Part shown: positions 29,208 to 35,380 of the stretch, piece after piece | How the letters are laid out: each line of letters opens with the position of its first letter | How positions within the stretch are numbered: the stretch's first letter is position 1 | Origin: Methanoculleus receptaculi | Lineage (GTDB): Archaea > Halobacteriota > Methanomicrobia > Methanomicrobiales > Methanoculleaceae | Reading direction: 5' to 3' | NCBI RefSeq assembly: GCF_033472595.1 | Contig: NZ_CP137642.1 | Coordinates: forward strand, 1,907,384-1,971,383 | DNA length: 64,000 nucleotides | Notes under the pieces: generated by a model | Seen by the model: only the letters and a program-made list of their open reading frames with translations | What the model was told of the DNA's origin: nothing | The model's database searches: none | Position numbers and translations under genes: made by a program

Positions 29208-30023
29208 ATGACGGCTTCCCGGGAAGTTCCTGCCCCCCTGATCGAGTCGCTGAAATCCCTGGGTCTTACGAAGTACGAAGCCCTGGTTTATATAGGTCTT
29301 CTGAGGGTTGCGGACGCGACGGCAACGGAGGTTCACGAGATCTCCGGTGTGCCGCGCGCATCCGTCTACCCGGTTCTCGACCACCTTGTCCAGAAAGAAC
29401 TGGTCATAGTCTCCCACACGATGCCAAAGCGCTTCGACGCTGTCCCCCCTGCGCAGGGTATCGAGAACCTTATGCGCAAGATCAGGAGCGATGCGGAGAG
29501 CGCACGGGAGGCCCTTGAGGTCTTCTACCGGGAAAAAGAACTGATAGACCGGGGTGCCCGGGAGCTGATCTGGACGATCTACGGCGAGGAGAATATCAAG
29601 ACCCGGCTTGCGGATATCTTCCGCAGCGCGGAAAAAAGCGTGGAGGTGCTTGCGACCCGGCATCTCCTGCGCGAGACTCTCCTCCCCCTGCTTGAATCCC
29701 TTCCAGACGCGGTGGAGGTTGAGATCATCACCGCCCGCTGGGAGGGTGAGATGCCGCCGCGGTTCAGGCTCCGTCTCCTGCCTCTGGCAAGTTCTCCGGG
29801 GAAACTGCTGCCCTACGAGAGGTCAGGCGTCTTCCTGGTGGATGACGCCCGCGCGCTGGTCTGGGTGGGAGAGGTTGACGGCCAGCCGTCTGCTCTCTAC
29901 TCGGAGTCGGGGGGGCTTCTCCTCTTTGTGCAGCGGCATATCAACACGGTCAAGGAATGGGCAATGACGGTGGTCAATAATCAGCCAGGTAACCCATCTT
30001 CTGTATATCGATCAACCCCTTGA
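29208..30023 (+). CDS. TrmB-family transcriptional regulator
   Basis: A 271-residue regulator. Residues 8-75 are the TrmB winged helix (SLGLTKYEALVYIGLLRVAD, EISGVPRASVYPVLDHLVQK); a helical linker and a C-terminal effector domain follow. TrmB proteins control sugar uptake and gluconeogenesis genes in archaea by binding sugars. The gene faces the surface protein-pgiA operon across a perfect inverted repeat, so control of that operon, tied to glucose-6-phosphate metabolism, is a reasonable inference, as is self-control. Its 3' end overlaps the NrpR-domain gene on the other strand by 50 bases. Confidence 0.9.
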   Translation: MTASREVPAPLIESLKSLGLTKYEALVYIGLLRVADATATEVHEISGVPRASVYPVLDHLVQKELVIVSHTMPKRFDAVPPAQGIENLMRKIRSDAESAREALEVFYREKELIDRGARELIWTIYGEENIKTRLADIFRSAEKSVEVLATRHLLRETLLPLLESLPDAVEVEIITARWEGEMPPRFRLRLLPLASSPGKLLPYERSGVFLVDDARALVWVGEVDGQPSALYSESGGLLLFVQRHINTVKEWAMTVVNNQPGNPSSVYRSTP

Positions 30024-30720
30024 GCGCCCGGGTCACCACAGGCTTTCCTGCTTCCCTGAGCGCCGCCATGGTGTTCGTGCCCCCGACGAATGCCACGCCC
30101 AGGTACTGCGGACTCACAGGGACACCGAGCAGCGGGAGATTTGGAGCGCCGAGATCCAGGATGCCGGAGAAACCGTATCCGGATAGTTCGTCGAGCACCG
30201 TCTCCAGGAGGTGCTCGGCCTCCATATGGCATTCCCGGATGTTTGCAAGGATGTTTCCAGTCCCGTGCCGCATTACATCCAGGATCGACGTTATCTCCTG
30301 GGATATCAGGACCTCCAGGGGATCGAGCGTGGTATCGCGGTAGAGGATCATGCTTGTGAACCGGCGGGGTGTCCTCCCTTCGATCTCGACTGTCCCGCCC
30401 CCGATGGGGTTGAGCGGAATCCCCCGCTGGATGAGGAGGGCATCAAAGGTGATGCTGCAGATCGTGCATATGGCGTTTCGACCTTCAGCCACGGTGTAGC
30501 CGTCAACCTGCTCTCCCGGACCGGCGATGAGCAGCCTGTCGCTGATGGTGATGCCCTGCCGGTGCGCCTCCTTCATGATGGAGATTGTGAACTCGAGGTC
30601 TCGGCTCTCGATAACCGAGAGGTTGTAGATCACCTTCCCCGCATTCTCCTCCGGGCGGTAGGTTACCTTGAACGCGTATTCCTCGATGCTGTGGTTGGTA
30701 AACTTCAGGGGAGCATGCAT
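29974..30720 (-). CDS. NrpR-type regulatory domain protein (DUF128), no HTH
   Basis: A 248-residue protein made of one NrpR regulatory domain: FKVTYRPEENAGKVIYNLSV, GITISDRLLIAGPG, AICTICSITFDALLIQRGIP, and VGGTNTMAALREAG. NrpR represses nitrogen-assimilation genes in methanogens and is released by 2-oxoglutarate. Full NrpR has an N-terminal winged helix before this domain; none is encoded here or in the 250 bases upstream that I could read. It therefore matches NrpRII-type proteins, which act with a separate DNA-binding NrpRI. The C-terminus overlaps trmB on the other strand by 50 bases. Confidence 0.8.
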   Translation of the reverse strand: MHAPLKFTNHSIEEYAFKVTYRPEENAGKVIYNLSVIESRDLEFTISIMKEAHRQGITISDRLLIAGPGEQVDGYTVAEGRNAICTICSITFDALLIQRGIPLNPIGGGTVEIEGRTPRRFTSMILYRDTTLDPLEVLISQEITSILDVMRHGTGNILANIRECHMEAEHLLETVLDELSGYGFSGILDLGAPNLPLLGVPVSPQYLGVAFVGGTNTMAALREAGKPVVTRALKGLIDIQKMGYLADY

Positions 30721-31382: not shown

Positions 31383-31446
31383 GCCTTTCCCCGGGGGCCT
31401 ACAAAAGGAAAAGTTGTTCTACCACCCTGTAATATCAGTTAGATGA

Positions 31447-32409
31447 ATGGATAGTGGGACCCGGGAAAAAGCTCGGAACATGTTGAAGTGGATCCTTGCC
31501 GCGGCATCTTACGATGTCGAAGAGGTAGGCGACCCGCTGGACCTCTCAGCGGTCGGGAGTGAGGACGCTCTTGTTGTGCTCTGCTCCAACGACCCTGAGA
31601 CGATCGAGAGTTTTGATTCTATGACATACCGCCTGCGCATAGGCGATGAGGACTGGGTCTGCAGGAAACTGCTCTTTACGCTGAATCCAGAGGTGCGGAC
31701 GGACGACTGCATCCAGTGGGGCCCGAATGAGTTTGTCCGGCAGGCCGGCAGAGCCGCTCTGGCGGAGGTTCTCGGGCAACACCTGATCCTGGACATTCCA
31801 TCGACAGACCGCGAGACGCCGAGGAATCAGGTCGAGGCCACACTCCTGGTGGATCAGGAACTGGAAGAGGATCCGGAGATCCCACATCTGCCGATTAAGG
31901 TCCCGGAGAAGCGCGCCTGTAAAATCGCAGGGATACAGGGGACGGCGAAATGCCGGTTCATCCCATACTGGAGTTACAACTACGTGAGCAGGGGCGAGCG
32001 CGAGGTCAAGAACCGGGCGATCTCCTTTGATGCTGAGGGAGGGGGCGCGATCAACGCCATCAACGGCCTGAAGATGGAGATCGACCCAGGCGAGATCGAG
32101 CGTGGTCAAATCCCAGCTGGCTCCGAGATCGTGCCTCCCCGCCTCATGCGTGAGGATGTTGAGGAGGAGATCGTGCAGGAGGTCACCGAACTCCTGACCC
32201 AGCGAATCCGGTTCCGCTACGAGAAAGGAGATACCATCTTTTACGAGGAGAAGACTCTCAAACCGGACCGTAACAATATCAGGGTCGAACTTGAGACAGT
32301 CTACGTGCCTGTCTGGCAGGTCAGGGGCGGGAGTAAGATCGTTGAGGTCAATGCGTTCAGCGGCGAGATCCTCTCTATGCCGATGGACGAGGGAGTTGAA
32401 CTTCTGTAG
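31447..32409 (+). CDS. Unknown protein coupled to a dithiol oxidoreductase
   Basis: I do not recognise this 320-residue soluble protein. The N-terminal third (ARNMLKWILAAASYDVEEVG, DALVVLCSNDPETIESFDSM) has alternating strands and helices like a restriction-endonuclease or Rossmann-type fold but no catalytic motif that I can point to. The C-terminal part has VYVPVWQVRGGSKIVEVNAF and SGEILSMPMDEGVELL, an ordered beta-rich domain, preceded by RFIPYWSYNYVSRGEREVKN. Cysteines near the middle (CKIAGIQGTAKC) form a possible pair. The next gene starts 8 bases after the stop, so they form an operon. Confidence 0.8.
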   Translation: MDSGTREKARNMLKWILAAASYDVEEVGDPLDLSAVGSEDALVVLCSNDPETIESFDSMTYRLRIGDEDWVCRKLLFTLNPEVRTDDCIQWGPNEFVRQAGRAALAEVLGQHLILDIPSTDRETPRNQVEATLLVDQELEEDPEIPHLPIKVPEKRACKIAGIQGTAKCRFIPYWSYNYVSRGEREVKNRAISFDAEGGGAINAINGLKMEIDPGEIERGQIPAGSEIVPPRLMREDVEEEIVQEVTELLTQRIRFRYEKGDTIFYEEKTLKPDRNNIRVELETVYVPVWQVRGGSKIVEVNAFSGEILSMPMDEGVELL

Positions 32410-32416
32410 GTAAACC

Positions 32417-33742
32417 ATGATCATCGTCATCGGTGGAGGGCCTGCAGGCAGGCTCGGTGCGATGCACCTTGCGCAGGCTGGCAGGGAGGTCCGGCTTGTC
32501 GAGCAGCGCAAGATCGGAGGGCAGTGTCTCCACGACCGGTGCATGACGATCTGCGCGTTAAACGACGTGGCACGACTTATAGAGCAGACCAGGATACAGA
32601 AGGATCTCGGGATCCTTGACTGCGTTCCGACCATCTCCTACCCCATGATCTGGAGACGGATGCGCGAGGTTCAGGAGAGACTCTCCTCCGTCCTCGACGC
32701 CGAGACGCGGGAGGCGGGGGTCGAGATCGTATATGGGGCTGAAAGTCGGCTTGAGGGGGGCCGGGTCTTCATCGACGATGAAGAGGTCAGGGCGGAGGCC
32801 GTCCTGGCGGCGACGGGGTCGCGGGCGGCGATCCCCGACATTCCGGGCACCGATCTCCCGGGGGTATACACCTATCAGACGCTTCCCGCAATGTCAGACC
32901 TCCCCCGCCGCATGGCGGTGATAGGCGGCGGAGTGGTCGCAGCTGAGTTTGCCTACATATTCAATGCCTTCGGAGTTGAGGTCGAGGTGATCGCCCGTCA
33001 TGGACTGCTCAAGGATCTAGATCCCAGGATGCGGTCTGCAGCGCTGCGCGACCTTGCCGGCGTCGGGATTCGGGAGCAGACCACTGTGGCGAGCATCGAG
33101 GGGGGCGGACGCGTCCGCTCGATCATACTTGCTAACGGCGAAGAGGTCGAGGCCGGGGCAGTCCTGCTGGCGACGGGTCTTGTACCCCGTTCGGAGTCGC
33201 TCCAGGGTCTTTTGAAGCGGCCGGACGGCGCGGTCATCGTGGATCAGAGGATGCAAACGAGCGTTGAGAATGTATATGCCGCAGGTGACGTCATAGGTCC
33301 GCCATACCTCACACCCGTCGCCCGCCGGGAGGGGCTGGTTGCGGCCGAGAACATCCTTGGTCACGAGGCTGTAATGGATTACAGATGCATCCCGCAGGCA
33401 ATATCTCTCCGCTACGACCTCGCTTTCGCCTCGACCGACGGAGATGATGGATCGCTCACCCTATCTGCTCCGGCGCCGTCCGGGTCGGGCTCATTCTGGG
33501 ATGTGGCAACCGGATGGACAGGACTTGCACGTATCCAGGTTGATCCTGAGAGCGGCAGGCTCGTCGGGGCGGCAGCCGCCGTTCCCGGGGCATCGTCCCT
33601 CTTCTCGTATCTAGCCCATCTGATGAAGCAGGGCATCACGGTGGCCGATTTTGCCGATATCATCGAGGTACATCCCTCGACCGACGGGATCTACTGGCTT
33701 GCCCGATACGCCGGGGATATACTGCAACAGAAGAAGAGGTGA
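32417..33742 (+). CDS. FAD-dependent pyridine nucleotide-disulfide oxidoreductase
   Basis: A 441-residue relative of dihydrolipoamide dehydrogenase and mercuric reductase. FAD-binding GGGPAG (6-11), redox pair Cys37 and Cys42 in GGQCLHDRC, NAD-binding VIGGGVVAAEFAYIF, and second FAD motif VENVYAAGDVIGPPYLTPVA are visible. The C-terminal dimer interface ends IEVHPSTDGIYW; the usual His-Pro-Thr-x-x-Glu of the catalytic base pair has Asp or Gly where Glu is expected. There is no lipoyl partner or dehydrogenase complex nearby; the physiological disulfide is unknown. The unknown gene upstream in the same operon is the best partner candidate. Convergent with ppaC, 15 bases apart. Confidence 0.9.
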   Translation: MIIVIGGGPAGRLGAMHLAQAGREVRLVEQRKIGGQCLHDRCMTICALNDVARLIEQTRIQKDLGILDCVPTISYPMIWRRMREVQERLSSVLDAETREAGVEIVYGAESRLEGGRVFIDDEEVRAEAVLAATGSRAAIPDIPGTDLPGVYTYQTLPAMSDLPRRMAVIGGGVVAAEFAYIFNAFGVEVEVIARHGLLKDLDPRMRSAALRDLAGVGIREQTTVASIEGGGRVRSIILANGEEVEAGAVLLATGLVPRSESLQGLLKRPDGAVIVDQRMQTSVENVYAAGDVIGPPYLTPVARREGLVAAENILGHEAVMDYRCIPQAISLRYDLAFASTDGDDGSLTLSAPAPSGSGSFWDVATGWTGLARIQVDPESGRLVGAAAAVPGASSLFSYLAHLMKQGITVADFADIIEVHPSTDGIYWLARYAGDILQQKKR

Positions 33743-33757: not shown

Positions 33758-35380
33758 CTAGGCCTGCCGGAGCATCCGCCCGAATTTCGGGATGAAATCG
33801 TTTTTCCGGGACATGACACCCTCGAGCCTGAGGGGTTGGTCGCGCAGTCCCAGTCTGGAGAGACAGCCATCATCGCCGGCGGCAAAGAGATCGCTTGCGT
33901 TCTCAAAGATGTTTGTAAAAAGGGCGAAGAAGCAGTCGACTCCAAACGCCGTTCTCAGGCGCTCAAGTTCAGCACGGATCTCATCTGCATGGTTCTGTGA
34001 GAAATCGAAGGATGATGTCATCACCTGCGAGACCATGACGCTCTTCCCGAAGAGGTTGTAGCGCTTCATGTCCCGCGTGAGGAGTTCATCTTTCGGGAGT
34101 GAGTTGAGATCCATACCCTTCTTGATAAGTTCAGCGCCGAAAACGGCAGGATCAACCCCTGCGATCTCCGCAAGGTAGTCAGCTGCTCTTATATCCGCAG
34201 GGGTTGTGGTTGAGAGCCTCATCACCATTGTGTCCGAGAGGATTCCTGCAAGCAGGACACCGGCGGTTGACGGTGTGGGCTCCAATCCAGCCTCGATAAA
34301 CTTGTTCGTGATGATGGTCGAGATCGACCCCACCGGATCGTTGAGGAACTTCACTGGCTTTAAGGTGGAGATCGCACCGAGACGGTGGTGATCTATGATC
34401 TCAAGGATGTCCGCCTTCTCAATCCCATCTACGGCCTGGGAATACTCGTTGTGGTCGAGCAGGATCACCGACTTCTGGACATCCTGCATCAACGTCGTCC
34501 GCGACACGAGTCCTATGTGCTCTCCATCTTCCCCCACGACACAGGCCGTCCTGAACTTGGAGTTCGAGACGACATCCTTTGCGTAATCAAGTGAGTCTTC
34601 AAGCCGCACCGTGGGAACGTCAGTCTCCATGATCATGCGCGCGGGAAGCGAGAGGCTGATCATCTTGCCGACGCTGAAAGCGTCAAGCGTTGTCGCGAAG
34701 ACTGATGTCCCCCGCGACCTGGCGGCCTCAATAACCCGTTCACCCACCGGCGCCCCTTCGGCGATTATGAGCGCGGCAACCCCTGCCGATATCAGCGCAA
34801 GCTGGGCGGGCTCGTTGTCCCCGACGATCGCGATATCGTCTGGAGTCATCCGGGAGAGGGTGACGTGCAGGGCGTCGATGACGGTGTAGACCCGGCCTTC
34901 CCCGAGCATCTCGCGCGCCTGGACGACCACCCGCGCATCCAGGATACGTGCGATGGTCTCAAGCGGCATCGGGATCAGTGAGAGTTGTTCTTTCGGGTTC
35001 TTCCGGACGTAGGCCCGTGCAAGACCATACTCGCTGACCAGACCGACCAGTCTTCCTATATCGTCCGTGATCGGCATGTTGCGCATATCGTAAGTATCCA
35101 TCATGGCAGCCACATCGATCGCCGGGAGATCCTGGCGGGCGCACCGGGTATCGAGCGGGATGTCCGAGACGGTGGGCTCGACGCTTGCTATGTAGACTGG
35201 CGGCTCAACGTTGAACGTCTCGAGAGCAAACCGCGCTTCCGGCCCCACCTCCCCGCAACGGGCGGGGATGTACTTCCCCGGTTCAGTGTGGTTGAGTAAC
35301 TCCGCGTAACCGATGACGCTACAGATGCTGTCGGTGTCGGGCTGCTTGTGACCGATGATGTAGATCTTATTCTGTCCCAT
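33758..35380 (-). CDS. ppaC: Manganese-dependent inorganic pyrophosphatase with CBS/DRTGG insert
   Basis: A 540-residue family II pyrophosphatase. The DHH catalytic part is split: GHKQPDTDS (10-18) at the N-terminus and EIIDHHRLG plus NDPVGSISTII later, with a DHHA2 domain at the C-terminus. Between lie two CBS domains (PITDDIGRLVGLVSEYGLAR; TACVVGEDGEHIGLVSRTT) flanking a DRTGG domain (AALIIAEGAPVGERVIEAAR). In this subtype adenine nucleotides bind the CBS pair and adjust activity, so pyrophosphate removal is tied to energy charge. It is transcribed away from a 471-base gap with a repeat copy. Confidence 0.95.
   Translation of the reverse strand: MGQNKIYIIGHKQPDTDSICSVIGYAELLNHTEPGKYIPARCGEVGPEARFALETFNVEPPVYIASVEPTVSDIPLDTRCARQDLPAIDVAAMMDTYDMRNMPITDDIGRLVGLVSEYGLARAYVRKNPKEQLSLIPMPLETIARILDARVVVQAREMLGEGRVYTVIDALHVTLSRMTPDDIAIVGDNEPAQLALISAGVAALIIAEGAPVGERVIEAARSRGTSVFATTLDAFSVGKMISLSLPARMIMETDVPTVRLEDSLDYAKDVVSNSKFRTACVVGEDGEHIGLVSRTTLMQDVQKSVILLDHNEYSQAVDGIEKADILEIIDHHRLGAISTLKPVKFLNDPVGSISTIITNKFIEAGLEPTPSTAGVLLAGILSDTMVMRLSTTTPADIRAADYLAEIAGVDPAVFGAELIKKGMDLNSLPKDELLTRDMKRYNLFGKSVMVSQVMTSSFDFSQNHADEIRAELERLRTAFGVDCFFALFTNIFENASDLFAAGDDGCLSRLGLRDQPLRLEGVMSRKNDFIPKFGRMLRQA

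Follow-up and report, generated by a model that had tools for sequence, protein, structure and literature searches.

A nearly order-wide gene pair of Methanomicrobiales joins a three-cysteine flavoprotein to a predicted nuclease-like protein

Introduction

The closest described systems to the two-gene locus analysed here fall into two sets, namely flavoproteins of the dihydrolipoyl dehydrogenase and glutathione reductase group (PF07992 plus PF02852) and the 2-oxopropyl-CoM reductase/carboxylase on the one side, and the Mrr-type restriction endonuclease domain (PF04471), the protein TIP26 of Thermococcus and PepSY domain proteins on the other. The usual flavin-side lysine and the glutamate of the C-terminal His-Glu dyad occupy positions that contact flavin or substrate; the 2-oxopropyl-CoM reductase/carboxylase also does without the usual Lys and the His/Glu pair. 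TIP26 is an archaeal TBP-interacting protein with a nuclease-like domain; it binds TBP and blocks TATA binding, and we know of no nuclease role for it.

Here, we describe a gene pair in a window of 64,000 nucleotides from Methanoculleus receptaculi (contig NZ_CP137642.1, positions 1,907,384 to 1,971,383), in which a gene termed U is followed by a flavoprotein gene termed F (Table 1). The pair is nearly universal in Methanomicrobiales, a major methanogen order, and text searches of the open literature found no title or abstract on it; lists of signature proteins possibly include U without a name. If F and U are partners, the locus would combine a flavoprotein disulfide reductase bearing a third active-site cysteine with a purpose-built protein client, and would offer a tangible way to study how strict anaerobes couple reducing power to cell control.

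Table 1. Features of the U-F locus, with positions counted from the first letter of the window
Feature	Position	Strand	Description
NRD1_2 protein	29974..30720	-	stand-alone protein of NrpR regulatory domains, divergent from U; 282.6 bits
Conserved promoter element	31408..31421	+	GAAAAGTTGTTCTA, upstream of U; core match, only one in window (expected 0.03)
Gene U	31447..32409	+	320 aa; predicted N-domain (about residues 1-118) of an inactivated restriction-endonuclease-like kind and predicted PepSY-like C-domain (about 143-320)
U Cys46 codon	31582..31584	+	next to site of the lost nuclease Lys; 99/104 order sequences
U Cys72 codon	31660..31662	+	96/104 order sequences
U Cys88 codon	31708..31710	+	90/104 order sequences
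Gene F	32417..33742	+	441 aa; FAD/NAD(P)H flavoprotein in an order-specific subfamily of the disulfide reductase superfamily
F redox disulfide	32525..32542	+	Cys37-x4-Cys42 (GGQCLHDRC); 105/105 aligned sequences
F third active-site Cys46	32552..32554	+	replaces Lys; 104/105 sequences; aligns with Lys of lipoamide dehydrogenases 1ebd and 2eq6
F His419...Asp423	33671..33685	+	altered C-terminal catalytic site; alignment of F sequences
Diphosphatase	33758-35380	-	manganese-dependent inorganic diphosphatase with CBS and DRTGG domains, adjoining F

A gene pair kept across the order

U and F lie in an operon-like arrangement, and both reading frames stand as originally predicted; the gap between them, which had been given as 8 bases, is 7 bases (32410-32416) from the U stop codon to the F ATG. 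The original statement that lipoyl, thioredoxin and mercury genes are absent nearby also holds among the neighbours that were typed. Elsewhere, the genome carries three thioredoxin-like genes and one gene resembling thioredoxin reductase, whose best match of 304 bits falls short of the cut-off.

The original prediction hung on the pairing being kept outside this genome, and it is. Among this genome and its relatives, U is present in 59/61 and F in 60/61. A sample of 392 genomes from the phylum includes 83 Methanomicrobiales, and 82 of these carry both genes. The two are adjacent on one contig and one strand in 80/82, with 6-137 bases (median 14, stop codon included) between the matched stretches; the exceptions are G406, where they lie apart on the same contig, and G184, where they lie on different contigs. 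Contigs of named genomes agree, as U is followed by F in 78/80 loci and the remaining two contigs end 374 (L138) and 94 (L154) bases past U. One genome of the order, G371 (96% complete), is the only one of the 83 without U and without F above the thresholds used.

Conserved adjacency could also arise if U and F were functionally unrelated genes in a slowly rearranging block, which we consider unlikely. Upstream genes are indeed kept at similar distances (GPI-like in 43/46 loci, CARDB-like in 42/46, TrmB-like in 37/46), and residual rates of U and F show no co-evolution in a small test of 33 loci (partial r -0.06), a result that removes rate co-evolution as backing for U-F contact; the same small test gave a residual correlation of 0.60 between U and the NRD gene. 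Against this explanation, the diphosphatase gene that adjoins F on its downstream side recurs there in only 16/46 loci, the first ones listed, so that the conserved stretch ends with F. The shared strand and short gap in 80/82 genomes, the joint absence of both genes from G371 and cysteines in U that track F across lineages likewise argue against a block held together by synteny only.

A flavoprotein of the disulfide reductase superfamily outside the named families tried

F belongs to a known superfamily but could be assigned to none of the named members against which it was tested. Pyr_redox_2 (PF07992) matches at 166.3 bits against a Pfam cut-off of 26.1, and the dimerisation domain (PF02852) matches marginally, at 27.9 bits against 25.3 and over only profile positions 49-103 of 110; in many F orthologues the latter scores below threshold or gives no match. 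F falls far short of every NCBIfam equivalog cut-off shown. We rejected dihydrolipoyl dehydrogenase (TIGR01350, 210.5 bits against 408.8, with no lipoyl partners), mercury(II) reductase (TIGR02053, 198.9 against 454.45) and thioredoxin reductase (TIGR01292, 77.2 against 343.45). In this genome and 30 relatives, the E2 component of 2-oxoacid dehydrogenases (PF00198) was found in 0/31 and GcvH (PF01597) over its cut-off in 0/31, with four weak GcvH matches in relatives and none in this genome; lipoamide is therefore an unlikely substrate of F.

F resembles the dihydrolipoyl dehydrogenase and glutathione reductase group in its two dinucleotide domains, its Cys-x4-Cys and its C-terminal His-Pro, and differs in having a third Cys in place of the flavin-side Lys and no dyad Glu. 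The description of F as a flavoprotein with a redox disulfide and an altered His/Glu site is thus borne out by the GGQCLHDRC motif, the two dinucleotide-binding domains and the loss of Glu. An alignment of 161 rows, reduced to 105 distinct sequences including that of the window by dropping duplicates with the same last 300 residues, has Cys37, Cys42, Met43 and Arg194 invariant, and the sole exception at Cys46 is Asn in L176. Position 419 has a letter in 101 of the sequences, and in each of them it is His. The Glu expected five residues later is Gly, leaving the dyad incomplete, and Asp423, one residue before that position, is present in 99/101.

F also carries a GxGxxA motif together with the invariant Arg194; in 1ebd the motif reads GxGxxG, with Glu in the region of the Arg. 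Because GxGxxA plus Arg denotes NADPH preference, F probably prefers NADPH. The 2-oxopropyl-CoM reductase/carboxylase is among the best PDB sequence matches of F (7mgn, 6e-36), a match no better than those to lipoamide dehydrogenases; unlike that enzyme, F keeps its His, and no carboxylase context is seen at the locus.

A DNA pattern of the F active site occurs in 76/83 genomes of the order and in 0/309 other genomes of the phylum. Six of the seven order genomes that miss the pattern are spelling variants that keep Cys-x4-Cys-Met-x2-Cys, and the seventh, G371, is without the gene. By this signature, the F type is confined to Methanomicrobiales within the phylum sample. Its nearest relatives outside the order, in G131 (L177) and G252 (L178), share 38% identity and lie away from U; they keep GGEC-x4-C and have no third Cys, with Ile and Asp, respectively, at that position by ungapped count. 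At L177, three flavoproteins stand in tandem, and at L178 the relative lies close to oxidase-like and aldehyde-oxidoreductase-like genes (named by eye).

The main rival to U as the disulfide of F is found among the small disulfides of methanogens. F could be a reductase of a small-molecule disulfide (or of sulfur), such as CoM disulfide, the CoM-CoB heterodisulfide or CoA disulfide, with U merely co-transcribed or regulating F, and we regard this as a serious if doubtful alternative. F retains the redox pair and catalytic His of its superfamily, no second flavoprotein with a dimerisation domain was found in this genome (several other genomes of the order have one more), and the 31 genomes hold no lipoyl E2 or over-threshold GcvH. 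A small-molecule reductase would nonetheless leave the order-wide coupling to U and the cysteines of U unexplained, and it would have to work with an altered His/Glu dyad and flavin-side Lys.

A predicted nuclease-like partner

U had been described as a protein of no known family. This holds at curated cut-offs, as nothing in U scores above any Pfam or NCBIfam threshold, and gives way when domains are compared, since the N-domain appears restriction-endonuclease-like, by a homologue's Mrr_cat match and fold matches, and the C-domain PepSY-like. An AlphaFold2 model built from 55 sequences (mean pLDDT 84, pTM 0.51) comprises an alpha/beta N-domain and a beta-rich C-domain, and the C-domain predicted alone reaches pLDDT 89 and pTM 0.78. 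As modelled, U combines known folds and lies outside any curated family here.

In VIA, residues 2-125 match PD-(D/E)XK structures at Z 5-9.4, and the top entry, AF1548 (1y88; Z 9.4, 96 residues, rmsd 2.9), stands with restriction-endonuclease-fold proteins. Mrr_cat (PF04471) matches the U homologue of L087 at 38.7 bits against a cut-off of 21, an independent sequence link to the nuclease fold, and does not match U itself. The predicted fold of residues 2-125 thus seems to be that of the Mrr-type domain. Unlike an Mrr-type enzyme, U retains only Asp32 of the catalytic residues and has Leu45 at the Lys site (sites assigned by reading). Since Leu45 at that site and the retention of Asp32 only are features of the U proteins of the order, we take U to be a catalytically dead, nuclease-like protein.

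TIP26 (2czr) is the first Foldseek row for U (E 0.012) and aligns in VIA at Z 7.4 over 88 residues (rmsd 3.1). With a Z below 8, this likeness perhaps reflects only a common arrangement; the C-domains are unmatched, and the model suggests a resemblance of fold only. For the C-domain, PepSY (PF03413) gives a weak 15.4 bits, below its cut-off of 24, and VIA gives a single row above Z 5, the PepSY lipoprotein 4exr, at Z 5.8 over 56 residues (rmsd 2.2). The model shows two alpha/beta units of PepSY-like kind (secondary structure by reading), and the domain may be PepSY-like, a weak fold assignment that leaves room for other folds. Foldseek searches with full-length U and with its C-domain alone gave no row at E 0.001 or better, a sequence profile of U against the PDB gave one meaningless match, and phmmer with the L087 homologue gave nothing convincing.

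Thiols of U and a possible electron path

U is more widespread than F, being present in 170/392 genomes of the phylum, and is the older of the two. At 24 hand-picked loci outside the order it keeps other company. Fifteen have an IscA/ErpA-type Fe-S carrier and NAC, and eight of the 15 a KaiC-like gene as well; four have a RecJ-family gene immediately upstream of U and in the same orientation; three have an NRD1_2 protein head-to-head; and two have none of these companions. Identities rest on family scans of one RecJ (L087), one IscA-type carrier (L085) and two NRD members; the remaining neighbours were assigned by similarity to the scanned members, and NAC was named by eye. Such companions indicate that U is more widespread than its link to F, and that its link to NRD is wider than its link to F. 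The carrier and NAC genes (L085, L093 and 13 similar loci) lie downstream of U, and the KaiC-like ATPase is often upstream.

U of this genome has five cysteines. The original prediction gave U a cysteine pair of its own, probably Cys158 and Cys169, and this does not survive comparison, as these residues are kept in only 19/104 and 28/104 order sequences, a level of conservation that rules them out as the functional pair. The cysteines that are kept are Cys46, Cys72 and Cys88 of the N-domain. Among 104 distinct order sequences, obtained after dropping duplicates with the same last 250 residues, 78 have all three, 25 have two and one has one. In the 24 outside homologues, all from lineages in which F does not adjoin U and 15 of them from loci with IscA/NAC neighbours, 20 have none of the three, four have one (in the Cys46 column) and 0/24 have at least two. 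Counted without an alignment, at least two cysteines occur in the first 115 residues in 104/104 order sequences versus 6/24 outside. Cysteine accounts for 3/17 of the order-specific conserved positions in the N-domain and 0/18 in the C-domain. In G131 and G252, the two genomes with the nearest outside relatives of F, the U homologue has no Cys.

Across lineages, the cysteines of U therefore coincide with the presence of F, and the sequences fit a gain of thiols by U when F joined it; this gain possibly happened only once, in a shared ancestor, and the 104 sequences therefore do not count as independent. Within the order, the cysteines of F and U show no joint variation, and losses in U do not track F. 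In L176, Cys46 of F is replaced by Asn, yet the cysteine set of U is full; in G184, F has Asn46 and is unlinked from U, and U has lost Cys72; and in G406, F is unlinked from U and all cysteines are retained.

Three conserved cysteines within one domain could instead bind a metal or an Fe-S cluster, with F acting as electron carrier to the cluster rather than as disulfide reductase. The IscA/ErpA-type carrier gene that follows U in 15/24 outside loci would suit such a role. We nevertheless judge it very unlikely, because 26/104 order sequences miss one or two of the three cysteines, which is unusual for a cluster site, and because, in the very lineages with the IscA-type neighbour, U either lacks all three or has the first alone.

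We tentatively favour, as possible rather than probable, a scheme in which U and F form one operon and a two-part, NADPH-driven thiol system or switch, with F keeping the thiols of U reduced. Electrons would pass from NAD(P)H, probably NADPH by preference, to the FAD of F and then to its Cys37-Cys42 dithiol, and F would hand them on to a disulfide. Given its coupling to F and its cysteines, U fits the role of that disulfide, or of a docking subunit, better than any other single candidate; it would contact F and receive electrons as a non-enzymatic, dedicated dithiol/disulfide client or docking subunit. The state of U, and of whatever U binds, would then follow the reducing power of the cell. 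Since U has its cysteine set where F adjoins, the partnership is directly testable with two proteins.

Upstream region and regulatory setting

The output of U may be regulatory or linked to nucleic acid, as suggested by its dead nuclease fold, by RecJ and other neighbours elsewhere and by its NRD partner. The NRD gene stands head-to-head with U within 1 kb in 59/67 named loci of the order, often with about 61 bases between them. A fuller version would make the pair a redox-sensing regulator of Methanomicrobiales, in which the NADPH-driven, three-cysteine F sets the thiol state of U and U in turn makes contact with nucleic acid or with the machinery of transcription. The pair would have an operator of its own in the U promoter and the NrpR-domain protein as divergent partner; as a whole, this extension seems to us quite unlikely.

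The element upstream of U bears on the operator. Its core is exact in 54/110 order genomes, at 56 sites, and is mostly single-copy; the control, the core pattern read backwards, also gives scattered matches. It lies 23-34 bases upstream of U, and 44/48 sites (47 genomes with a U coordinate) are at U, a distance count that omits 8 sites in 7 genomes where that coordinate is missing. A BRE/TATA promoter of a leaderless transcript has a geometry that also fits this spacing, so the element may be an operator or part of the promoter itself. The NrpR-type operator is GGAA...TTCC, and we rejected it for the U promoter, as the upstream sequences scanned hold one chance-looking match. In Methanoregula-type genomes, the element is a palindrome, ATAGAA-N6-TTCTAT, within CAATAGAAAAATTGTTCTATAAG.

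Outside the order, the RecJ-family and U genes overlap or lie <=5 bases apart at L087, L090, L179 and L182, which represent two families.
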